Positions 246-12,078 of a stretch of DNA of 57,354 nt are shown here, piece after piece. Within the stretch, counting starts at the first letter, position 1. Every line of letters starts with the position of its first letter. A model generated the notes under the pieces. That model saw nothing but the letters and a program-made list of their open reading frames with translations, was not told where the DNA came from and did no database searches. This DNA comes from Paracoccus sp. UBA889 (GTDB lineage: Bacteria > Pseudomonadota > Alphaproteobacteria > Rhodobacterales > Rhodobacteraceae), in assembly GCA_002294185.1 (NCBI GenBank), contig DBFD01000056.1:1-57354 (forward strand), in the 5' to 3' direction. The position numbers were made by a program, and so were the translations under genes.

Positions 246-1217
246 CTACGTGTCACATCCCGCGTGATTGTAGACGCGTTTTCTGAACGGCTCTGGCGTT
301 TGGCGCTGCCAGTCCTTGAGGGCATCGACAGGTGTTCGGCCCTTGAGGACTGATTGCGGGAGCTGGCTGTTGTAGAGGTGGACGTAGCGCAGGATGGTGT
401 GTTTGAGGTCCTCGCCGCTTCGGAAGCGGTGGCCCTGCAGGACATACTCGATCCGGCCGTTGGAGCGTTCGACCGTGCCGTTCGTCTGCGGCCGCATCGG
501 GGGTGCGAGGTGGTGCTCGATGCCGAGGTCGGCGCAGAGCAGGTCGAACTCGTGCTGTCCTGTGGGGCTGCGCTTGCGCAGGCCGAACAGTCGGTCGGTG
601 AAGGCCTTGCCATTGTCGGTCAGAACCCGGGTGATCTTCATCGGGGCGGCACGTTCGAGATCGCGCAGGAACCGCCGCGCGTTGGCCGCAGTCTGCGCCG
701 GATAGATGCGGACGAAGACCCACCGTGTGGCGCGGTCGATGGCCACGAAGAGGTAGCGCCGCCGCTCCTCGTCCGCCATCTGCGGCAGGTACTTCACGTC
801 GACATGCAGGTAGCCGGGCTCGTAGGCCTTGAAGGTGCCGTGCGTCGGCTTCGGCTCTTTCGGCTTCAGCGCCCGCAGGTTGCCCAGGCCATGGCGCCGC
901 AGGCAACGGTCGAGGCCGGACCGAGAGACCTGCGGGTTGAGGAACTCGCGCACCACGGCCAGCAGGTCGTCGAGCGGCAGCAGAAGCGCCTTGCGCAACG
1001 CCACCGCAACGGCCTCCTGAGGCGGCGTCAGCGTCGTCTGCAACCGGTGCGGCGTGTGGCTCCGGTCGTGAACGTCCTCGCGGTTGCGCCACTTCCACAC
1101 CGTCTGCTCCGAGATGCCGTAGCGCTCGGCCACCATCCATGCCGGTTCGCTGCTCGCCTGGATTGCGGCCCGGATCTTCGGTGTCGTCGTCGCCTGCTTG
1201 TGCAGAGAGATCAGCAT
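246..1217 (-). CDS. IS481-family transposase (DDE integrase-core)
   Basis: This 323-residue protein moves the surrounding insertion sequence. A helix-turn-helix occupies about residues 15-50 (AERYGISEQTVWKWRNR), and an rve integrase core covers about 125-300. The catalytic triad is visible as the Asp in YLHVDVKYLP, the Asp in VLTDNGKAF and the Glu in TNGTVERSNGRIE. The length is normal for single-ORF IS481 transposases, with no frameshift, so it may be active. Its last codons run through the left inverted repeat, and the stop codon falls at the element edge. It sits beside decayed sequence on the right, consistent with a rearrangement hotspot. Confidence 0.92.
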   Translation of the reverse strand: MLISLHKQATTTPKIRAAIQASSEPAWMVAERYGISEQTVWKWRNREDVHDRSHTPHRLQTTLTPPQEAVAVALRKALLLPLDDLLAVVREFLNPQVSRSGLDRCLRRHGLGNLRALKPKEPKPTHGTFKAYEPGYLHVDVKYLPQMADEERRRYLFVAIDRATRWVFVRIYPAQTAANARRFLRDLERAAPMKITRVLTDNGKAFTDRLFGLRKRSPTGQHEFDLLCADLGIEHHLAPPMRPQTNGTVERSNGRIEYVLQGHRFRSGEDLKHTILRYVHLYNSQLPQSVLKGRTPVDALKDWQRQTPEPFRKRVYNHAGCDT

Positions 1218-1793: not shown

Positions 1794-3920
1794 CTAACAA
1801 AAGGGATGCGGTGCAGGGTTCAATGTGCCCAGCGGCAGGTGGCGGAGCCGCGCCGAGCCCAGATGCAGCATCCCGAAGCCGCAGGATAGTGGCAGCAGGT
1901 CGGTCACCAGGGCACGCACGACACGAATCGACGCAGCCGCCACATCGCGAGGTGTGAGGTCGGCGAGCAGAACCGTCAGCCCCTGTTCGTCGAGCCGTTC
2001 AACCAGATCATCCAGCCCCGTGATCGGCAGCGAGGGATCGACAACCGACGGGTGGTACGCGGCATGACGCAAGAAGGCGACGTGCTGCGATGGCGGCCCA
2101 AGATAGTAGCAGGCGTGATCGATGAATTGCCCCCGCCGCACCTCCTGGGGCAGGCATGGGCGTGGACCGCTTTCCTCGTGCAGCATTCTCGCAAGTCCAA
2201 GCCCGGATGAGGCCTGTTCCAGCACCGCTTTCGCCGCCGCGCGCCGGATATCGGGATCGGCTGCAGAGGTTGCCGTCAGCCCGGGCCAGCGGATGCCATC
2301 ACCCGTCGCCATGCACATGATCACCGGCACGCCGCCCGCGCCATCCAGCAGATGCAGCGCGACAGAGGCACCGGCCTGTCGCAGCCGCGCGATGATGCCC
2401 CGCGTTTCGGTGTTGCACAGATCCTGCGGCAGCAGGCGCCCGGCGTCGCGTCGCAGCCAGGCGGTCAGGACCGCGTCGCGCTCGATCACTTCGAGGATCG
2501 CGCGCATTGCCGCGCTTTGCTGATCCGCGCCCGCCGCCAGGCCGTTCGAGGTCATCTGCTGAAGATGGTTCGAATATCCGGCCGGAAGCCGGTAATAGAC
2601 CTGCTCGGCCAGCACCCAGGTCCGCGCCCCGCTGCACGGATTGACGGCGGTGGTCCAGAAAGCCTGCGCCTCGGGGTCGAAGGGCCGGAAGGGAAAATCC
2701 GGTTCGGCATATTGACTGCGGCCGTAAAGACCGATCTGGCGGGGGTCCAGAACCGGGCCGTCCAGATCGCGCATCCGTGCCCGGACCAGCGTCCGCGGGT
2801 CGCAGCGGGATGCGGCATAACGCTCGAAGGCTTCCCCGATCGCGCTGATCATCGCCTCGTCTTCCGTCAGGCCCTTGCCGCAGGCGGGTTCGGCCGCGAT
2901 GGGATCGTCGCGGAAGCCGCAAAAAGGCGCCACCTCGGCCACGGCGATGAAAGTTCCCGGCAAAGGGCGCGGTCGATCGCGCAAAACCGGCCCGACGAAC
3001 ACCCCGGTCTCGAGGTCCAGCCAGTCGCGGAACCTTTGCCGCGGACCCGTGCACGGCCCGGCGGATCTGCACTGGGTCGCAACCGGATCCTTCCCGCAGG
3101 TGCTGCAAAACGGCATGGGGATGAAGCCATGCAGGCTTGATGTCTGGGCTGCGAGATCGAGGATCCGGATTTTCCCTTCCAGAGCCCCCGCCGCATCCGC
3201 AGCCAGATGCCGGCAGATCTCGGCAGAAAGCGATCGGGCGAAGGATCGCGACACTTCCGGACCGGGTCGGGAATGATGCACCCGGGCCAGCCCGTCGGCA
3301 CGCGCCCAGGCTGTGGGGTCGGGCGCGTGCGCACGGCGACGCTGCCGGGCACAGAGCCAGCATCCGGCCAGACCGGCCCGCGAGACGGGGCCGGCGAAGC
3401 CCTTCGCGCCAATGATCTCGGCGCCCAGAAACGGGATTCCCGCACGGCGGCATGATTGCTCCAGCTCGACTTGCAGGACCGGCCTTCGCGGAGCAAACGC
3501 GCCGACAACCAGATCCAGATCCGGCGAAAGCGGCGGGTCGCCGCGGTTCGGGGCGTCCCGGCCGGCGTCACGTCCCGCAACGGGAGCCCACACCGACAGG
3601 TGCGCAATGCCGCAGGAGACGAGTTCCTCAGCCAGCGGGGAAACCCAATCGGCGTCGCCCGCCAGCAGGACATGCCCTGATCGCGCCGGTGCCGGGGCCA
3701 GCGTTTCGTCTGCCAGCCCGGTCAGACCCGCAGTCTCGAGAAAGTCGATCAGCTCGCGGAACGAGGCCGTTGAGTCGCCCCTCGCGGCATCGATTCCGTC
3801 CGACAGCAGCGTTTCGACCATTTCCCGGATCGCCCCGCCGTGCAGCATGACGGGGCCGGCGCCGGTCAGGGTCAACACACCGTCCGGCTGAAGGTGAATC
3901 CGGTCCCGCAGCAGGCGCAT
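1794..3920 (-). CDS. fused E1-like/YcaO cyclodehydratase (TOMM/RiPP maturase)
   Basis: This 708-residue enzyme is predicted to install azoline-type (thiazoline/oxazoline) or other backbone amide modifications on a ribosomal peptide using ATP. Residues about 1-75 look like a winged-helix precursor-recognition region. Residues 80-290 resemble the E1-like partner (cyclo_dehyd_2), with zinc-type Cys pairs CWLC (187/190) and CSTC (272/275). Residues 295-708 are a YcaO domain with its two Glu-rich ATP/Mg motifs, SAIGEAFERY (359-368) and ILEVIERDA (475-483). The C-terminus carries PAPHP, the PxPxP motif of azoline-forming YcaOs, followed by Phe-Cys. The fusion order is that of PatD/TruD-like heterocyclases. 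It lies 18 bp after the radical SAM gene, so it is probably co-transcribed. No flavin dehydrogenase that would oxidise azolines is nearby. Confidence 0.85.
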   Translation of the reverse strand: MRLLRDRIHLQPDGVLTLTGAGPVMLHGGAIREMVETLLSDGIDAARGDSTASFRELIDFLETAGLTGLADETLAPAPARSGHVLLAGDADWVSPLAEELVSCGIAHLSVWAPVAGRDAGRDAPNRGDPPLSPDLDLVVGAFAPRRPVLQVELEQSCRRAGIPFLGAEIIGAKGFAGPVSRAGLAGCWLCARQRRRAHAPDPTAWARADGLARVHHSRPGPEVSRSFARSLSAEICRHLAADAAGALEGKIRILDLAAQTSSLHGFIPMPFCSTCGKDPVATQCRSAGPCTGPRQRFRDWLDLETGVFVGPVLRDRPRPLPGTFIAVAEVAPFCGFRDDPIAAEPACGKGLTEDEAMISAIGEAFERYAASRCDPRTLVRARMRDLDGPVLDPRQIGLYGRSQYAEPDFPFRPFDPEAQAFWTTAVNPCSGARTWVLAEQVYYRLPAGYSNHLQQMTSNGLAAGADQQSAAMRAILEVIERDAVLTAWLRRDAGRLLPQDLCNTETRGIIARLRQAGASVALHLLDGAGGVPVIMCMATGDGIRWPGLTATSAADPDIRRAAAKAVLEQASSGLGLARMLHEESGPRPCLPQEVRRGQFIDHACYYLGPPSQHVAFLRHAAYHPSVVDPSLPITGLDDLVERLDEQGLTVLLADLTPRDVAAASIRVVRALVTDLLPLSCGFGMLHLGSARLRHLPLGTLNPAPHPFC

Positions 3921-3938
3921 GATCGCCGCGCCCCGGTC

Positions 3939-5300
3939 TCAGGCCACAGCGGGCAGGGACGGATCACCGGCGGCCCTGTCCATTCGCTCGAAGGCAGCGG
4001 CCAGAAGCAATCTCTGGGCGATGTTCCGTTTCGAGCTGGGGCAGGGCGCCCGGCCCTCGATCCATTCCTTCGGGCAGGCGCCGCCGCAGACGGGCAGCAG
4101 GGGACAGCGGCTGCATCCGAAGGCGCCGGCCTCGACCTGATCGTTGAAACTGCCGAGAATGTCGCGCACCTCGGCCTGCCGCTCGCCCGTGGTCAGATCG
4201 CCGATGGCAAAGCGGTTCGGCGTGCCATAGCTGGGCACGTAAGAGACCTCGGTGCAGTTGAACAGCGTGCCATGCGCATCGACCAGCGCCGCGTCGGGCT
4301 GCACCGCAAGACAGACCACGGGCTGCCGTTTGGGAACCAGTGGCACGGAAAAGCCCATCCGCTTCATCTCGACAAACCAGGATAATTCCCGTTCGGCGTA
4401 GTCTGCGGGCTCCAGGCTGCGGCGCTGTGCGTCATTGCCCCAGGAATGGATGGGGGCGGTGTAGAACTGAACCGCGCGCTCCAGTCCCTCGTCGCGCAGT
4501 CGTCGCAGCAGCGGCACCACGTCCGAGGCGTTTTCCCGATCGACATTGCAGCGCACCTTGATCTCGATCGGCGCATCCTGGGTCGTCGCCACAAGCTGAA
4601 CCAGATTGGCGAGGATCCGATCGAAGGTCGGCTTGCCGGATTTCGTGTGGCGCCGCCGGTCGTGATGCGGGGCTGTCCCGTCCAGCGAGACAGTGACCGA
4701 GACGACCCCGAGCGGCCCGACCAGATCGGCACCGATCTTCCGCGACATGGCCAGCCCGTTCGTGATGATGCTGGCGCGATATTCGACGCCACGTTCCTGA
4801 CACAGGCTGCGCAACTGCGGCGTCAGCGAACGCATCTGCTGAATGCCCGACAAGGGCTCTGCGCCGAACCAGCACAGGTTGAGCTCGGCGAAAGGACCGC
4901 GGTCCAGCCGCGCCTCGACATCGCGCAGGATATCGGCCTCGTTCGCGCGGCTCAGATTTGTGCGCTCGTGGGTCTGACCGCAATAACCGCAGCCCAACTG
5001 ACAATGTGCCGTCGGCTGAATGACATAATTCAGATGCGGATTGACCCGGATCCCGTCCCGGTTCCGGTCCAGAATGGTGGATAATTCTGCCTCGGCCTCG
5101 GGCACCAGGATTTCGGCCTCGGAAAGCTGGGTCAGGACATCGCTGTTCAGCTTGTCGAATCCGCCTTCGCGCAAGACCGTCCATATGGCCTGCGGCACTT
5201 CGAAGATCTGCCCCGTCCGGGTCGAGAAGAGGACATGACGATTTTCCTCTCCTTCCGCGAAAACCGGCGACGCAATGACATATCTGGAGAGTTTCTGCAT
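3939..5300 (-). CDS. radical SAM/SPASM peptide maturase
   Basis: This 453-residue protein probably modifies the peptide encoded just upstream. Residues about 1-75 resemble a PqqD-like recognition domain (VLFSTRTGQIFEVPQAIW). The radical SAM core carries the 4Fe-4S motif CQLGCGYC at C100, C104 and C107. The C-terminal part has a SPASM-type auxiliary-cluster arrangement: CTEVSY, then CSRCPLLPVCGGACPKEW and a final Cys near APC. I chose the ATG at 5300 because AGAGG lies 9 bases upstream. The frame stays open further upstream, but that stretch is not protein-like and overlaps a hairpin. SPASM enzymes in RiPP clusters usually form thioether or C-C crosslinks. The chemistry here cannot be assigned from sequence. 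Confidence 0.88.
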   Translation of the reverse strand: MQKLSRYVIASPVFAEGEENRHVLFSTRTGQIFEVPQAIWTVLREGGFDKLNSDVLTQLSEAEILVPEAEAELSTILDRNRDGIRVNPHLNYVIQPTAHCQLGCGYCGQTHERTNLSRANEADILRDVEARLDRGPFAELNLCWFGAEPLSGIQQMRSLTPQLRSLCQERGVEYRASIITNGLAMSRKIGADLVGPLGVVSVTVSLDGTAPHHDRRRHTKSGKPTFDRILANLVQLVATTQDAPIEIKVRCNVDRENASDVVPLLRRLRDEGLERAVQFYTAPIHSWGNDAQRRSLEPADYAERELSWFVEMKRMGFSVPLVPKRQPVVCLAVQPDAALVDAHGTLFNCTEVSYVPSYGTPNRFAIGDLTTGERQAEVRDILGSFNDQVEAGAFGCSRCPLLPVCGGACPKEWIEGRAPCPSSKRNIAQRLLLAAAFERMDRAAGDPSLPAVA

Positions 5301-5360
5301 GATCCCATGCCTCTGGAAAATGAGTTTCGGGGCAGCCAGCGCGTGATGACATCGGATGGC

Positions 5361-5385
5361 CGGCGGATCGCAAGCGTATCCGCCG
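5361..5385 (-). promoter_or_regulatory. intergenic hairpin between precursor and maturase genes
   Basis: CGGCGGAT (5361-5368) and ATCCGCCG (5378-5385) form a perfect 8-bp stem. The 9-base loop can itself pair CGC with GCG. It sits in the 104-bp gap between the precursor stop (5405) and the maturase start (5300). There is no U-run after it, so partial termination or RNA protection is more likely than full termination. Such hairpins commonly keep RiPP precursor mRNA above enzyme mRNA. Confidence 0.55.
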
Positions 5386-5404
5386 ACGCAAGACCGCAAT
5401 GGTC

Positions 5405-5626
5405 TTATTTCGCGATGCCCGACTTGTCGCGAAGGGCCGCTTCGGCACCGCCGCAGCCGCTGTTCTGGCAGCCGGTGTTCTGGTCGGACAGCGCCTTCAG
5501 CCGGCTGAGCTGCGAATCGGACAGTTTCGAGGCAGCCGCGCCACTGGTCATGCCTTCTACAGCGGTATTCAGATTGAGCCTTGCCTGGGCAAGGGCTTCG
5601 ACGATGGAATCGAGTTCTTGAGCCAT
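5405..5626 (-). CDS. candidate RiPP precursor peptide with NTGCQ-NSGCG core
   Basis: The gene encodes 73 residues. The start at 5626 has AAAGG seven to eight bases upstream; a GTG three codons earlier overlaps that ribosome site and is less likely. Residues about 1-47 look like an amphipathic leader (LDSIVEALAQARLNLNTAVE, then SKLSDSQLSRLKAL). Residues 48-60 hold a tandem pentad NTGCQ/NSGCG with the only two cysteines, C53 and C58, followed by a short tail ending GIAK. Cys, Ser and Thr in the repeat are the residues that YcaO and radical SAM enzymes typically modify. It is the first gene of the operon that continues into the SPASM and YcaO genes. No similarity to a named precursor family was recognised. 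Calling it a precursor is inference from size, composition and neighbours. Confidence 0.75.
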   Translation of the reverse strand: MAQELDSIVEALAQARLNLNTAVEGMTSGAAASKLSDSQLSRLKALSDQNTGCQNSGCGGAEAALRDKSGIAK

Positions 5627-6179: not shown

Positions 6180-6797
6180 CTATCCTACCCAGGTTCGTGT
6201 AGGAACCTCACGAGACCATCGGAAGCCAAGGAACTTGTAAACATCCCAGGCCTTTTCTATCTGATCGTAACCGAATTTCCGGCAAAGCCGCCATGACGGT
6301 TCGTTCCGGGAAGAAATAGTGGTAATTGCCGCCGACAATCCTTTATTCTCGAAGTAATCGTACATTCCTTGTAATATGAAAAGTGAAACAATAGACCCGC
6401 GGCTGCCGGGCGAAACATATCCCGCGAAGTGAAAAAACTCTCCGGGCTTGACGTGAACCGTATTTTTCCAAAGATGTCGATCGTAGAAATCATCTTCGGT
6501 GGCAAATATGTAACCAAGAACTGAATTATCTTTCGTGGCGAAGAAGGCTATTATATCTTTCTCGATATATTCTCGAAAAAAATCAGCCCTTTTAGGAAAG
6601 GTCTTGATCATCGGAGCTATTTCGGGTTGCGTTTTCGCAATATGAAGTTTGATGCCTTTCGGGTTCATTTTCTTGTACTTGTTATCACGTTCGACCGGCT
6701 TTCTGAACGTCAGGATGTGGTCGATGTCGAAGATCTTGTCCTTGAAGACTTTCTTCATCCGGTACTTTGAAAGGTTTTTAACTGGAGATTTGGGCAT
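6180..6797 (-). CDS. GNAT-like N-acetyltransferase, low GC
   Basis: This 205-residue protein resembles the GCN5-related acetyltransferase fold: ILAYIF-like strand (VLGYIFATEDD), a central segment FHFAGYVSPGSRGSIVSLFI in the acetyl-CoA loop position, and a C-terminal NEPSWRLCRKFGYDQIEKAWD, matching the N-x-x-a-x-x-l-y-x-k-x-G-F helix of GNATs. The N-terminus is rich in Lys. The ATG at 6797 has GGGAG eight bases upstream. G+C content is only about 40-45% by eye, far below the neighbouring genes, which suggests recent acquisition. It reads in the same direction as the RiPP genes but 550 bp upstream with its own regulatory region. It might acetylate a peptide or sugar; the substrate is unknown. 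Confidence 0.6.
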   Translation of the reverse strand: MPKSPVKNLSKYRMKKVFKDKIFDIDHILTFRKPVERDNKYKKMNPKGIKLHIAKTQPEIAPMIKTFPKRADFFREYIEKDIIAFFATKDNSVLGYIFATEDDFYDRHLWKNTVHVKPGEFFHFAGYVSPGSRGSIVSLFILQGMYDYFENKGLSAAITTISSRNEPSWRLCRKFGYDQIEKAWDVYKFLGFRWSREVPTRTWVG

Positions 6798-6859
6798 ATT
6801 ACGCGCTCCCTTGTAGAATCCGCAAAACTTCTACGCTACACTCTGCCTCGGTCGGCAGC

Positions 6860-6871
6860 GTAAAATTTTAC
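6860..6871. promoter_or_regulatory. perfect 12-bp palindrome GTAAAATTTTAC
   Basis: This self-complementary 12-mer lies in the divergent gap between the GNAT-like gene and the FemAB-like gene, 16 bp before the latter's GTG start. Its position suits a repressor site or part of a -10 region (TAAAAT). No binding protein can be named. Confidence 0.3.
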
Positions 6872-6886
6872 ACACGGGGGATCTTC

Positions 6887-7969
6887 GTGAAGGTTCATTT
6901 TTCTCAGGACGTTGCGGCTCCGATCGTTCAGAGTGCCAACACTCTTGTCCAGACATGGCCTTCCGCGTCCATCATGCAGAACGCTGTCTGGCCCAAGATC
7001 GCCGCACCCTCGCAGATTCAATCCTATCGTTATTTCGTTTGCTCCGACAAGGTTGGGGATGTCGTTTCCGCAGGATGGGTTCGCCTGACCAGGCTTTATC
7101 GCGGACGATTCTCCGCATCGCTCAAGAGGGGGCCGTGCACCCGGACGCCGGAGGATCTGGCACGGATCATGCCGGCGCTTGAAGATGCTCTTTATCGCAT
7201 GGGCGCCATTTCGGTGGCGGTGAATCCGCATTGGCAGGATGAGGATGCCGAGACCTGCGAAGACGTCTTGATGCGCGGCGGCTATGCCAGGGTGCCATCG
7301 GACGAGCAGACGTTGCCGAGCGCGACGGCATTGATCGACCTGGATGGATCCGAGGACGCGCTTTTGGGCAGCTTTTCGCAGCGACGGCGGCGGGACCTGC
7401 GCAGTTCCGGAGGCACGGAGGTCGAGGTGCGCCCCGTGGCGTCGTTGGCCGAATCGTCACGGCTGAGCGAGATCATGCGGGAAATGGCCCGGACGACCGG
7501 GTTGGAGATCGATGGGCAGCATGATTTTTCTGCCCATTTCCGCGTGCTTCAAGCCCATCCGGGCTTGGGAACGATGAATGCTGCGCTGGTCGATGGAAAG
7601 ATTATCGGCGGTTCGGTCAGCTATCGCGAGGCGCAGCGCAGCTATGCGCTGCTTGTTGCCACGTCACCGGGTATGCGCGGCGGCCGCAGCACGTCGCTGT
7701 ACTGGCAGAATATCCTGGATGCCAAGCGGCAGGGCAGCAATGTGCTTGATCTGGTGGGCTATCCTGACCCGCGTCTGTCGGGATCCGGCGAGGCTGCGGG
7801 ACGTCAGGAATTCAAAGACAGCTTCCGTCCCCGGATCGTGACGCTGCCGCCGATCATGAAGAAGGTGCTGCGCCCCGTCGAGGCAAGGGCCTATCGCGAG
7901 TTGAGGCGTCTCTATCGCCGCTCTCGCTGGAAGACGCAGATAAAGGCGATCATCCACCGATCAGCATGA
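6887..7969 (+). CDS. FemAB-like peptidyl/aminoacyl transferase (GNAT fold)
   Basis: This 360-residue protein resembles FemAB-related proteins found in polysaccharide loci. The C-terminal half has the recognisable pattern LDLDGSEDALLGSFSQRRRRDLRSS near residue 145 and, further on, ALLVATSPGMRGGRSTSLYWQNILDAKRQGSNVLDLVGYPDP, typical of the acetyltransferase_6 domain. The GTG start at 6887 follows GGGGGA. True FemX/A/B enzymes transfer amino acids to lipid II. Relatives in exopolysaccharide clusters have no settled role, perhaps aminoacylation of the polymer or of its lipid carrier. Its last nine bases overlap the convergent glycosyltransferase gene. Confidence 0.65.
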   Translation: MKVHFSQDVAAPIVQSANTLVQTWPSASIMQNAVWPKIAAPSQIQSYRYFVCSDKVGDVVSAGWVRLTRLYRGRFSASLKRGPCTRTPEDLARIMPALEDALYRMGAISVAVNPHWQDEDAETCEDVLMRGGYARVPSDEQTLPSATALIDLDGSEDALLGSFSQRRRRDLRSSGGTEVEVRPVASLAESSRLSEIMREMARTTGLEIDGQHDFSAHFRVLQAHPGLGTMNAALVDGKIIGGSVSYREAQRSYALLVATSPGMRGGRSTSLYWQNILDAKRQGSNVLDLVGYPDPRLSGSGEAAGRQEFKDSFRPRIVTLPPIMKKVLRPVEARAYRELRRLYRRSRWKTQIKAIIHRSA

Positions 7970-9061
7970 CGGCCCCAGAAGGTCCGAGAATGCGGATTCG
8001 TAGGCTTCCACCGCGGCCGTGACGGTGAAGTCGCCGGCGACTTGCCGGCCGGCCGCCACATAGGACCGACGAAGCTCTGCATCCGCCGTCACCTCGATCA
8101 GTGCTCGGCCGAAATCTGCCGCCGTGTGACGTCGCACCAGCCTTCCGGCCTTGCCGTCACGCAAAAGCACCTTCGGCCCGACCGGGCAATCGACGCTGAT
8201 CACCGGCACCCCCGCCGCCATGGCTTCGACGATCGCGTTTCCGAAGCCTTCCCGGCGCGAGGTGCACAAGAAGAGATGGGCGTTTCCGAGCCGCTGGGGA
8301 ACATCGCTCGCAAAGCCCGGCAGCGAGACGGAATTTCTCAGGTCATGACTGTCGACGACGCTTTCCAGGCGGGCGCGATCGGGCCCTTCACCGATGATCT
8401 CCAGGGTTGCCCCCGGCCTCTGCTTGCGCAGCACGGCAAAGGCCTCGATCATCAGGTCAAAGCGCTTCACTTCGGCCAGTCGCCCGACGCTGACAAGTTT
8501 CGTGGCATTTTCCGGAATATTGCCGGGCGGCTGGATTTCCTCGACAACCGGATTGCGCAGACATCGGAATGGCGGGCATCGATTGCCCAGAATATCTTTC
8601 AGCTCATCCCCGATTTCGGCCAGCGGCGCCACGGCGAGATCGGCCAGCGGATAGGTTCCGCGCAGACCCAGAAGCCGCAACTGCCGCCATTTGGATTCAG
8701 CCAGATTTCCGGAAAGGGGCGTATGTTCGCTGATTACCGATCTGCATCTGGCGAGTTTTGCCGCGGCAGCGGCATAAATGTTGGTGGCGGTCGTGGCGGT
8801 ATAAACTGCGTGCACCCGCTGGCGCCGCAGATGCCATGCAATTTCCGCTATACACGACGGCGCACGCCGATTGCGAAGCACAATGACAGGCGTGTCCTTC
8901 AGCAGATCCAGAAACTCGCCTTCCTGGCGCTGCAGGATGACCAACGGTTCGAAGACGTCGCGGCGCAGGCTGCGAATCAGGGTGACGCAAAGCCGTTCGA
9001 CGCCACCGTGCCGGAGGTGCGGCAGGAAGAACGCCACCCGTTTGGGATCAACGCCCTTCAT
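7961..9061 (-). CDS. GT4-family glycosyltransferase
   Basis: This 366-residue enzyme should add a sugar during exopolysaccharide assembly in the cytoplasm. The N-terminal Rossmann fold begins RVAFFLPHLRHGGVERL, as in GT4 enzymes. The C-terminal nucleotide-sugar domain has LVSVGRLAEVKRFDLMIEAF, LEIIGEGPDR and the E-x7-E motif in SRREGFGNAIVEAMAAGVP. I prefer the ATG at 9061 because it places the first strand at the usual distance from the start. No clear ribosome site is visible, and the frame extends to a GTG at 9130. It is the only gene of this block on the minus strand between plus-strand genes. Confidence 0.85.
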   Translation of the reverse strand: MKGVDPKRVAFFLPHLRHGGVERLCVTLIRSLRRDVFEPLVILQRQEGEFLDLLKDTPVIVLRNRRAPSCIAEIAWHLRRQRVHAVYTATTATNIYAAAAAKLARCRSVISEHTPLSGNLAESKWRQLRLLGLRGTYPLADLAVAPLAEIGDELKDILGNRCPPFRCLRNPVVEEIQPPGNIPENATKLVSVGRLAEVKRFDLMIEAFAVLRKQRPGATLEIIGEGPDRARLESVVDSHDLRNSVSLPGFASDVPQRLGNAHLFLCTSRREGFGNAIVEAMAAGVPVISVDCPVGPKVLLRDGKAGRLVRRHTAADFGRALIEVTADAELRRSYVAAGRQVAGDFTVTAAVEAYESAFSDLLGPSC

Positions 9062-9541
9062 GAGCACAAATACGCGATCTGGACCAGGAAATTCGTCGCC
9101 GCGGGTCCGATGTGCATGTTCCTCAACCACAATTCATCCACACAAGGTCCACTTTCCGCTTCGTTCAGGCAAGCGAAATCGTGCCGCCATCTTGCTGCAT
9201 CTGGCAAGAATCGGCCTTTTCAGCCAGCATCCGCCGGCGCCCGGTTGCACCGCGACCGCAGTTTTGTCAGGCGCTAACTCGGTTTCCGAGTGCTGTGGTT
9301 GATCGAAAGCCAGACTGTGCTGCCGACGACCGTGTCACCGGCGCCGCAGGCGAGAAAGGATCGCTCGTCGTTTCCGACCTCGTGCAGTCGACTATGGCGA
9401 GAGCGTGCCTGGGCGCATCTCGTCCGTAAAGCTGTCTTGCGCCTGCGCAGCCAGAATTTTGTTTCCCACAGTTTCAGGTTTGTTTTTGGACGACACCAAG
9501 AGAATGGCAGATGCCATATCACGAAATGACAAGGAACTACA
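9062..9541. other. 480-bp divergent intergenic region
   Basis: This region separates the minus-strand glycosyltransferase from the plus-strand beta-helix gene. It should hold both promoters. Several short open frames cross it but none has protein-like composition or a ribosome site. AAGGA lies just before the ATG at 9542. I see no repeat or hairpin worth naming. Confidence 0.4.
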
Positions 9542-10690
9542 ATGCCGCAATACGACAATATTATCGAGAACGTCACCTACAACAGCACCCTGCGCCTGAC
9601 CGGCAGTGAATGGGATAACACGCTGGTGCGCAACGTCGTGATCGAGAATGTCAATGGAAACGGTGCGCTGCTTCGGGACGTCGATAATGTCACCTTCGAA
9701 AACGTCACCATCAGAAATGTCAGCGGAGATGGAATCAAACTGAGCACCCAGGGTTCGACATCGAACGTCGTCATCTCGAACAGTGACATATCCCGGGTTG
9801 GAGAAGACGGGATCAACGCCGGACAGCGATACGAGCAGGGGGTATCGCATCCGGGACTTCAGATCATCGGCAACACCATCGACCAGACCGGCCTGAACGG
9901 TGGCAATGACGGCCTGCGGCACGGTATCTATGTCCAGAGTCGCGATGTCCTGATCCAAGACAATCGCGTGACCAATTCAGAGGATGGAAACGGCATCTCT
10001 GTGCGCAGTTCCGGCATCGTCAAGGACAATTATGTCGAAGGCTCGAATGACAGCGGGATTGCGTATTTCGCGGATCACATGGGCAGCGACGGCACCCTTC
10101 GGATCGAAGGCAACACGGTGGTCGACAGCGGCTATGGCAACGGCCGTTCGGATATCGACCTTCTGTCGGTTCCGAACCAGAACTATCGCGTCGATTCCTT
10201 CATCATCAACTCCAACAATCTGGAGAGGGGCGCCGCGGGCGTGCGCATCGGAAATGGCTATAACGACGCCGTTGTCGACATCAACGGAAACGTTACCGGA
10301 ACCGGAACCATCAGCAGTGACAGCGGCAGCGAAAGGCCCGTTTCGGCGCCGGCCGTCGATGACGGCCTGTCGTCCTCGACGATCCAGGGAGATAACGGCA
10401 GCAATATCCTTCGCGGAACCTCGAACGACGACAGCTTCTACGGACTGGCCGGTGCCGATGTCTTTGTCATGGCAAAAGGCGGCGGGACCGATACGATCGA
10501 GGATTTCCAGCCGGGCGTTGACCGGGTTTTCGTCTACGGGTTCAACAACGCAAACTCGGTCGGCGATCTGCTTTCGCTCGTAAGCGAACGGGACGGCGAC
10601 ACGGTGCTCTCCTTCGGAAATGGCGACAATCTCGTCTTCGCCGACACCAACCTGAACGAATTTTCGTCGGGCGATTTCCTTTTTGGCTAA
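9542..10690 (+). CDS. secreted beta-helix protein with RTX/hemolysin-type C-terminus
   Basis: This 382-residue protein has two parts. Residues 1 to about 260 are a right-handed parallel beta-helix with repeated N-x-h-h-x-N-x-h turns (NVTFENVTIRNVSGDGIKL, VLIQDNRVTNSEDGNGISV), as in polysaccharide lyases, epimerases and glycosidases. Residues about 280-382 resemble the C-terminal RTX serralysin-type domain (GDNGSNILRGTSNDDSFYGL, ADVFVMAKGGGTDTIEDFQPG). There is no N-terminal signal peptide, which with the RTX tail suggests type I secretion. The transporter is not in this window. In this locus it probably cleaves or remodels the exopolysaccharide outside the cell; no catalytic residues could be assigned. 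Confidence 0.8.
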   Translation: MPQYDNIIENVTYNSTLRLTGSEWDNTLVRNVVIENVNGNGALLRDVDNVTFENVTIRNVSGDGIKLSTQGSTSNVVISNSDISRVGEDGINAGQRYEQGVSHPGLQIIGNTIDQTGLNGGNDGLRHGIYVQSRDVLIQDNRVTNSEDGNGISVRSSGIVKDNYVEGSNDSGIAYFADHMGSDGTLRIEGNTVVDSGYGNGRSDIDLLSVPNQNYRVDSFIINSNNLERGAAGVRIGNGYNDAVVDINGNVTGTGTISSDSGSERPVSAPAVDDGLSSSTIQGDNGSNILRGTSNDDSFYGLAGADVFVMAKGGGTDTIEDFQPGVDRVFVYGFNNANSVGDLLSLVSERDGDTVLSFGNGDNLVFADTNLNEFSSGDFLFG

Positions 10691-10697
10691 GTCCTGA

Positions 10698-10726
10698 CCC
10701 CGCGTCCCGTCGGTTTCCCGGCGGGG
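10698..10726 (+). terminator. possible stem-loop after the beta-helix gene
   Basis: CCCCGC (10698-10703) pairs with GCGGGG (10721-10726) eight bases after the stop codon of the preceding gene. No T-run follows, so this is a weak or Rho-assisted terminator at best. Confidence 0.35.
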
Positions 10727-10804
10727 CGCATCCCCCCTGCGACGCTGATCGCCATATGGTCATCCCGCCCTGTTCTGCGCGTGCGGACGAGTGAAGGCTT
10801 GACT

Positions 10805-10819
10805 TGCAGCATGGCTGCA
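10805..10819 (+). promoter_or_regulatory. inverted repeat upstream of the export operon
   Basis: TGCAGC-ATG-GCTGCA is a perfect 6+3+6 inverted repeat placed 50 bp before the Wza-like start codon. It abuts a TTGACT hexamer (10799-10804) that could be a -35 box, although no good -10 follows at 17 bp. It is a candidate operator for the exopolysaccharide operon. Confidence 0.35.
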
Positions 10820-10869
10820 CGTCACGCTCTGTTACGGTTTGTGCGGTAGCTTGGTGGGTGGAAAACCTG

Positions 10870-12078
10870 ATGTTCAGAGTCTCGCGTTGGGCCATTCTGC
10901 CTGTCGTCGCACTGGGTCCGATCCTTCTGACGCCGCCCGCCCTGGCCGACGAATATCTCATCAGTCCCGGCGATGAGCTTGATCTGTCGGTCTTTGCCCG
11001 CCCCGATCTGTCGCGCATCTATCGGGTTCGATCGGACGGGACGATCTCGATGCATATTGTCGGCACGATTCCCGCCGCCGGACGCACGCCGGCGAAGCTC
11101 GAGCAGGAAGTCGAGGCACTTCTGGCGACCGCGTTCTCGGATTCGGAATCGGTGACGCTGGAAGTGGCGTCCTACGTGCCGATCATCGTATCGGGCGACG
11201 TTGAAAACCCGGGCAATGTCCCGTTTCAAGCCGGGATCGACGTGCGCTCTGCCGTGGCGATCAGTGGCGGAATGGCCGATCCGGCAAATCTTGACAATAC
11301 CAGCAGCCGGATGCGCGTATCTGACGAGTTGGCCAATGCCGAGGTTCTGTCCAAGCGGCTGGCCGCGCTGCAGGTGACGCGTGCGCGCCTGATCGCCGCG
11401 CGCGACGGCGATACGACGATGGAAATCAGCGACGAGGTCCAGAAGCAGCTGGATGAAAACCAGGCCGAGCCACTGGTGACTGCGGCAGCCACGCTGCTTG
11501 CCGCGCTTGGCGAGGTTCAGGACGCGCGCCGCCAGGCACAGGGCGACCAGCTCCGGCTGGCGCGGGAAGAGGCCGAGGCCTTCGCCGAGCGTCGCACATT
11601 GTTGAACAACCAGCTCGACACGCTTCTCAAGGCTCTGGCCGATCAGCAAAATCTGCGCGACCGCGGCCTTGCGCGGTCGGATCGCGTGGTCCAGTTGACC
11701 CTGGACACGTCCCGCCTGCGCGTTGACATCCTCGAATCGATCGGCCTGGAAGCGGCCGCGCGACAGAAACTTGAACGCGCGGCTTCGGCGCCGGCCACGG
11801 ATGAGACACAGTTGCGGGCAGACCTCTCGGGGCTTCTTGCCGAGACCGAGGCCGCGATCCTGGAAACGTCCACCCGGCTTGAGCGATCCCGTGCCTTCGT
11901 GCGCGAATTCGCAAGCAGCGCCGACATCGCCGAAGAGTTCGATGTAAGCGTGACCTATCGCATCTATCGCCGGAACGGCGAGGCCACCGAGGTGGTCGAG
12001 GCAGGGCCCGATACCCGGCTTCACCCCGGCGACGGTCTGGAGGTGGTGCGCATGGTCGATATCCCTGGGGCGCCGTGA
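10870..12078 (+). CDS. Wza/GumB-like outer-membrane polysaccharide export protein
   Basis: This 402-residue secreted protein would form or gate the outer-membrane exit for the polymer. The ATG at 10870 begins a signal peptide (WAILPVVALGPILL, cleavage near ALADEY). The poly_export domain follows at once: YLISPGDELDLSVF and RVRSDGTISMHIVGTIPAAG, then a SLBB-like VSGDVENPGNVPFQAG. Residues about 165-360 are a long Glu/Ala/Leu-rich coiled coil, more like the extended periplasmic region of GumB/ExoF-type proteins than compact Wza. There is no lipobox cysteine, so it is not an obvious lipoprotein. It is the first gene of an operon of eight, with starts and stops mostly overlapping. Confidence 0.85.
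   Translation: MFRVSRWAILPVVALGPILLTPPALADEYLISPGDELDLSVFARPDLSRIYRVRSDGTISMHIVGTIPAAGRTPAKLEQEVEALLATAFSDSESVTLEVASYVPIIVSGDVENPGNVPFQAGIDVRSAVAISGGMADPANLDNTSSRMRVSDELANAEVLSKRLAALQVTRARLIAARDGDTTMEISDEVQKQLDENQAEPLVTAAATLLAALGEVQDARRQAQGDQLRLAREEAEAFAERRTLLNNQLDTLLKALADQQNLRDRGLARSDRVVQLTLDTSRLRVDILESIGLEAAARQKLERAASAPATDETQLRADLSGLLAETEAAILETSTRLERSRAFVREFASSADIAEEFDVSVTYRIYRRNGEATEVVEAGPDTRLHPGDGLEVVRMVDIPGAP

Follow-up and report, generated by a model that had tools for sequence, protein, structure and literature searches.

Three genes lie one behind the other on the minus strand of contig DBFD01000056.1 of Paracoccus sp. UBA889, whose 57,354 nucleotides are referred to here as the window, and together they almost certainly form a unit for a ribosomally synthesized and post-translationally modified peptide (RiPP). 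In order of transcription they encode a 73-residue peptide, a radical S-adenosylmethionine (rSAM) enzyme with a SPASM domain, and a fused E1-like/YcaO cyclodehydratase (Table 1). The three open frames that an earlier note had read from the sequence are all there. The genes are separated by gaps of 104–128 and 11–31 nucleotides in the window and in the five other loci that hold all three, and the cassette carries no transporter, protease, immunity or dehydrogenase gene.

Table 1. Features of the three-gene cassette and its surroundings, in window coordinates (aa, amino acids; dN and dS, nonsynonymous and synonymous substitution rates).
Feature	Position	Strand	Basis
Precursor peptide, 73 aa	5405..5626	-	Invariant block at residues 39–65, QLSRLKALSDQNTGCQNSGCGGAEAAL; one length without indels across six genomes; dN much lower than dS
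Double N-x-x-C motif N50-T-G-C53-Q-N55-S-G-C58 (core)	5453..5479	-	Single match in the genome; N-x-x-C in relatives
RNA hairpin after the precursor stop codon, ahead of the rSAM start	5359..5387	-	Single-sequence folding
Radical SAM/SPASM peptide maturase, 453 aa	3939..5300	-	PF04055, TIGR04085, AlphaFold2 fold match
Fused E1-like/YcaO cyclodehydratase, 708 aa, ending LNPAPHPFC	1794..3920	-	PF02624, TIGR03882, PDB relatives MusD, TruD, LynD
IS481-family transposase, adjoining the cassette, outside the pathway	246..1217	-	NF033577, 250.7 bits against a cut-off of 224

The peptide gene opens with an ATG at 5626, upstream of which stands AAAGGTG, and its product is exactly 73 residues long in all six genomes that carry the cassette. 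The block at residues 39–65 is shared by five distinct peptide sequences, and the tetrads NTGC and NSGC within it are invariant in the six genomes. Between the window and Paracoccus lichenicola, the gene shows a dN of 0.046 and a dS of 0.43 (dN/dS about 0.1); between the window and cassette locus L019 these values are 0.14 and 1.7, and dN/dS stays at or below about 0.22 in 14 of the 15 pairs, those with a defined dS. A degenerate 27-nucleotide pattern of the double motif has a single match in the 3.24 Mb genome, the window's peptide gene itself. The frame is kept next to the two enzymes and is subject to purifying selection, the two sequence-level properties on which the earlier note had made its proposal depend. 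A chance open reading frame (ORF) was rejected as an explanation of the peptide, given this selection and the recurrence of the same three-gene unit in other genomes.

With the window's rSAM protein as query, a single scan of genome contigs returned 10 loci. The complete cassette, always in the same gene order, is present in the window, P. lichenicola, Nitrobacter sp. Nb-311A, N. vulgaris, N. winogradskyi and the metagenome-assembled genome (MAG) bin.62. The remaining five of the 10 loci come from a Cytophagaceae MAG (L020), a Spirosoma (L021), a Kangiella MAG (L022) and two Winogradskya (L023 and L024), and no YcaO relative lies within the fetched 12–17 kb of any of them. When whole genomes were searched, YcaO was not found in the Spirosoma or the Kangiella MAG; the Cytophagaceae MAG has one on a separate contig, and each Winogradskya has three. 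Identity to the window's rSAM protein is 70–92% inside the cassette group and 34–42% in four outside relatives, and for YcaO the figure is 52–75%. Additional rSAM relatives occur on plasmids of Rhizobium etli (41%) and Streptomyces (33%) and in Bacteroidota genomes.

The neighbourhood is not spread across the Rhodobacterales, where the earlier note had suggested looking for it: full-length YcaO relatives (E 1e-30) are found in 2 of 125 genomes of the window's genus, and the cassette otherwise occurs in Nitrobacter and one MAG, which is itself the only positive among 60 genomes of its family. At 0.001 the rSAM query matches 13 of 61 relatives, strongly only in the window's genome and that of P. 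lichenicola. It matches 2 of 385 genomes of the class at 1e-25 and 4 of 398 of the phylum at 1e-30, all weakly (27–31%) except the window's own. In the Nitrobacter family, 9 of 198 genomes match at 1e-30, with at least 75% identity only in the three cassette-bearing Nitrobacter. The Spirosoma relative, used as query, gives matches at 1e-40 in 3 of 345 genomes of its class, the Winogradskya relative finds only itself among 296 genomes, and viral contigs gave one weak match. A comparison of selected non-overlapping ORFs of at least 80 aa, covering 14 kb of the window and all ten loci, showed no gene beside the cassette that any two cassette loci have in common, not even the two Paracoccus or the Nitrobacter among themselves; the sole exception is an ORF antisense to the peptide. 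No neighbour beyond the three genes is conserved across the six loci, and from its sequence context the cassette looks like a horizontally mobile three-gene unit.

The start of the rSAM gene is best placed at the ATG at 5300 (453 residues, beginning MQKLSRYV), which is backed by homologues; the mechanical ORF list opens it with a TTG at 5399. Both the CX3CX2C site (CQLGCGYC) and the SPASM cysteines described in the earlier note are present. The segment CGYCGQTH is invariant in ten aligned sequences, as are C330, G344 and C349, followed by CX2CX5CX3C (396–409) and C420. The protein scores 37.1 bits with Pfam PF04055 (cut-off 29.5) and 34.7 with the NCBIfam SPASM model TIGR04085 (cut-off 27). 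Its N-terminal part is probably a leader-binding domain. Among the best 25 of 55 matching NCBIfam families, the top equivalog is TIGR04463, the Cef (Cys-every-fifth) maturases, at 189 bits against a cut-off of 525; the sequence thus places the enzyme near ranthipeptide-type maturases, though far below the cut-off. The AlphaFold2 model (predicted local distance difference test, pLDDT, 86.6) finds as its top solved-structure match 5why/5wgg, whose title concerns thioether bond formation (14–15% identity, TM 0.63) and which we take to be CteB.

What is new here is that the rSAM relatives lacking a YcaO neighbour mostly sit beside N-x-x-C peptides. In five divergent lineages, the nearest upstream Cys-containing short ORF has N-x-x-C in four, and Asn stands at −3 for 8 of 11 Cys (L020 2/2, L021 0/2, L022 4/5, L023 1/1, L028 1/1). 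The background, taken from 14 loci in six frames and including the precursors themselves, has the motif in 85 of 1201 short ORFs and at 93 of 2213 Cys (4.2%), giving a P of 1.2e-4 that serves only as a guide, the lineages having been chosen after the motif was noticed. Further peptides show it at L029 (NGNC), L060 (NGCC in three tandem copies) and L061 (NKIC); these were partly picked by motif or by eye and were kept out of the P value, and L024, being nearly identical to L023, was not counted. Two more distant precursors, of the Cef/TIGR04463 type, show the reverse order: none of their 28 and 16 Cys has Asn at −3, and Asn or Asp stands at +3 for 16 of 28 and 7 of 16.

Some of these relatives lie in settings of their own. 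At L060 (Bacteroidota, 9224–9822), the three NGCC peptides of 57–61 residues follow the rSAM relative like an expandable precursor array, and in the Kangiella MAG a 109-residue precursor (L022, 7607–7936) carries N-x-x-C four times, in two blocks that may stem from an internal duplication. On the Streptomyces plasmid (L029, 7672–12457), which has no YcaO, a 33-residue ORF ending in NGNC is followed by a radical SAM protein, a class I methyltransferase, a SagB-type dehydrogenase and a major facilitator superfamily transporter. After the Spirosoma radical SAM gene (L021, 9397–10461) comes a protein with C39-peptidase and 2-oxoglutarate-Fe(II) oxygenase domains.

The motif in turn points to a known reaction. 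In NxxcA, a streptococcal ranthipeptide precursor, the SPASM enzyme NxxcB bonds the thiol of Cys23 to the C-beta of Asn20 (excerpted text of the review PMC8326336), and the upstream Asn C-beta is also given as its bonding site in excerpts of the review PMC13361665. Because the upstream peptides of the relatives mostly carry N-x-x-C, the NxxcA motif, the present enzyme likely performs the NxxcB reaction twice, and on this sequence basis Asn-Cys beta-thioethers are its probable product. The likeness is one of precursor motif; here there are two motifs, the host is a proteobacterium and a second enzyme, E1-YcaO, is present. SPASM enzymes are chemically diverse, and with TIGR04463 so far below its cut-off the enzyme might make some other change at N-x-x-C (an alpha-carbon sactionine, a C-C bond or an epimerization) while YcaO makes azolines; the NxxcA match and a top fold match concerned with thioether formation speak against this alternative, which we consider unlikely.

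The third protein has the 708 residues and E1-like Cys pairs of the earlier note, where PAPHP was taken as its very end; PAPHP is present in all six proteins, each of which continues with FC (NPAPHPFC). A C-terminal PxPxP is a motif of cyclodehydratases of thiazole/oxazole-modified microcins (TOMM) and linear azol(in)e-containing peptides, and PAPHP fits it. The pairs C187-X2-C190 and C272-X2-C275 are invariant in six sequences and both align with TruD. The YcaO domain scores 189.8 bits with PF02624 (cut-off 25.7) and the E1-like leader-binding domain 59.1 with TIGR03882 (cut-off 36.9). Since both domains exceed their cut-offs, the CxxC pairs are present, MusD, TruD and LynD align and the end reads NPxPxPF, azolines are the likely product. 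These cyanobactin-type enzymes share the fused domains and CxxC pairs, and TruD the NPxPxPF end; the present protein differs in length (708 residues against 775–784), in an extra final Cys, in a cassette that has no protease or dehydrogenase, and in its SPASM partner. YcaO might instead make an amidine or a thioamide, as do ItfB or TfuA-linked YcaO proteins, and in the Itf cluster it is indeed the YcaO beside a SPASM enzyme that makes an amidine (excerpts of PMC10352776). This is very improbable here: the E1-like domain and TruD-like end point to azolines, no TfuA was found in profile scans of seven window proteins, and the ItfB target in those excerpts is a C-terminal Thr-Phe, whereas all six peptides end in Lys.

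From the genes, their conservation, the motif and the enzyme families, the following residues, order of steps and product may be proposed. The leader of the precursor would probably be bound by both enzymes, each through its own leader-binding domain. The rSAM enzyme would abstract a C-beta hydrogen at Asn50 and Asn55, and each would then be joined to the thiol of the Cys at +3 (Cys53 and Cys58), giving two four-residue, NxxcA-like beta-thioether rings. E1-YcaO, with ATP, would cyclodehydrate Thr51 and Ser56, the residues directly after each Asn, so that one ring would enclose a methyloxazoline and the other an oxazoline. These would stay azolines because the cassette has no dehydrogenase, and the expected mass change is about −40 Da in total (2 × −2 and 2 × −18). 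The sequences are best read as giving two Asn-Cys beta-thioethers, with YcaO forming (methyl)oxazolines at Thr51 and Ser56, a reading offered tentatively and at a little under an even chance. The doubly modified peptide of the earlier note, azoline plus thioether, is retained in this form, its thioether half now having a basis in N-x-x-C and its chemistry still being predicted.

The choice of Thr51 and Ser56 follows if the rSAM enzyme uses the cysteines, for these are the remaining invariant Thr/Ser of the core, Ser41 and Ser47 lying just N-terminal to it. The residue after Asn is Thr or Ser at both sites in the YcaO group and at 1 of 11 sites in lineages with no neighbouring YcaO, the three L060 paralogues being counted as one. 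No YcaO was found in the nine loci behind this count, and the complete L060 and L061 genomes gave none either. As a sign of YcaO targets the pattern is no more than suggestive: the single exception, L028 of Rhizobium, has NSGC although its plasmid carries no YcaO, so that exclusivity to YcaO partners was rejected as proof. The main rival is that YcaO forms thiazolines at Cys53 and Cys58, with an rSAM change that needs no free thiols, or that each enzyme takes one motif, giving one thiazoline and one thioether. The YcaO relatives TruD and LynD act on Cys, Gly precedes both Cys of the invariant core, azolines often form at Gly-Cys, and any thiazolines would draw on the very cysteines that the thioethers need. 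Conversely, rSAM relatives with no neighbouring YcaO mostly retain the Asn-x-x-Cys spacing, which argues for Cys as an rSAM substrate. Thiazolines are on this account rather unlikely, and azolines on Thr/Ser are somewhat favoured over azolines on Cys.

Besides Gly-Cys, the competition for cysteines and the Rhizobium NSGC, other observations weigh against the (methyl)oxazoline and thioether proposal. The upstream peptide of Spirosoma has no N-x-x-C, and the YcaO-bearing cores, being identical, count as one lineage. The description of L020, L023 and L024 as free of YcaO applies to their neighbourhoods only, and in both Winogradskya one YcaO gene and that of the rSAM enzyme are about 9 kb apart; this YcaO was set aside as a partner since opposite-strand ORFs intervene in the single stretch examined (L062). 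The cyclodehydratase falls slightly under the cut-off of the SagD-family model TIGR03604 (209.9 against 219.25), with a match covering 1–376 of 377 positions, and its predicted structure was poor (pLDDT 37) and was not used.

How far is such a cassette new? The earlier note could name no class in which YcaO and SPASM enzymes share one small peptide without a flavin dehydrogenase, yet there is precedent for the two enzymes on one peptide. Excerpts of PMC10352776 report 15 areas with rSAM and YcaO in 1,136 Bacteroidales genomes, together with the Itf case, where ItfB (YcaO) and ItfD (radical SAM), like the enzymes of biosynthetic gene clusters BGC6-8, act on one precursor; the same set of clusters is reported to include PCAT exporters. 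Excerpts of PMC8120280 describe clusters that pair TfuA-YcaO with an enzyme of the ranthipeptide type. Nostatin A, an azole-containing proteusin, likewise carries both azoles and a thioether bridge, and its cluster includes rSAM enzymes; in the excerpted text of PMC11583998 its bridge lies at the alpha carbon and is thought spontaneous, and the rSAM enzymes are assigned to epimerization and C-methylation. About half of TOMM clusters encode a fused E1-YcaO protein, and the flavin dehydrogenase is optional (excerpts of PMC4603692), and the main text of this survey contains neither 'radical SAM', 'SPASM' nor 'Nitrobacter'. Because ItfB and ItfD provide a precedent in those excerpts, the cassette is a new combination of known kinds of chemistry, not a new category. 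Full-text searches, whose coverage leaves most subscription journals outside, found no description of the E1-YcaO and N-x-x-C SPASM pairing, no mention of TIGR04463 and, among the papers listed, none combining NxxcA/NxxcB with YcaO.

Because the core is invariant over Paracoccus, Nitrobacter and the MAG, and the cassette has no transporter, protease or immunity gene, its product may have a fixed function in the cell, as a signal, metal ligand or cofactor, and not be an arms-race antibiotic. Taken whole, a previously undescribed RiPP type with (methyl)oxazolines inside four-residue Asn-Cys beta-thioether rings, whose core is invariant, whose role is fixed and whose three genes move horizontally as a unit, is a doubtful proposition. 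If true, azoline and beta-thioether chemistry would come together within a single stretch of four residues, and N-x-x-C enzymes would be suggested for Pseudomonadota, Bacteroidota and Actinomycetota in addition to streptococci. The three-gene system has no transporter and should be easy to express, and an unchanged core in unrelated genera raises the question of which cellular job needs this exact peptide.

Two minor features complete the locus. Behind the peptide gene, single folds of five sequences each give a hairpin of 10–11 base pairs starting 13–17 nucleotides past the stop codon, with differing letters and register; the window's hairpin has no T run behind it. Folding of the whole gap gives a z of −0.65 in the window, which is not unusually stable, and −1.9 to −3.2 in the other four; no Rfam family matches at gathering score within the window, and the hairpin perhaps serves RNA processing or partial attenuation. 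Beside the cassette (6180–12078), profile searches identify GNAT/FemAB-like and glycosyltransferase genes, and a gene at 10804–12078 resembles polysaccharide export when judged by eye only, so the cassette perhaps sits at the edge of an exopolysaccharide region.

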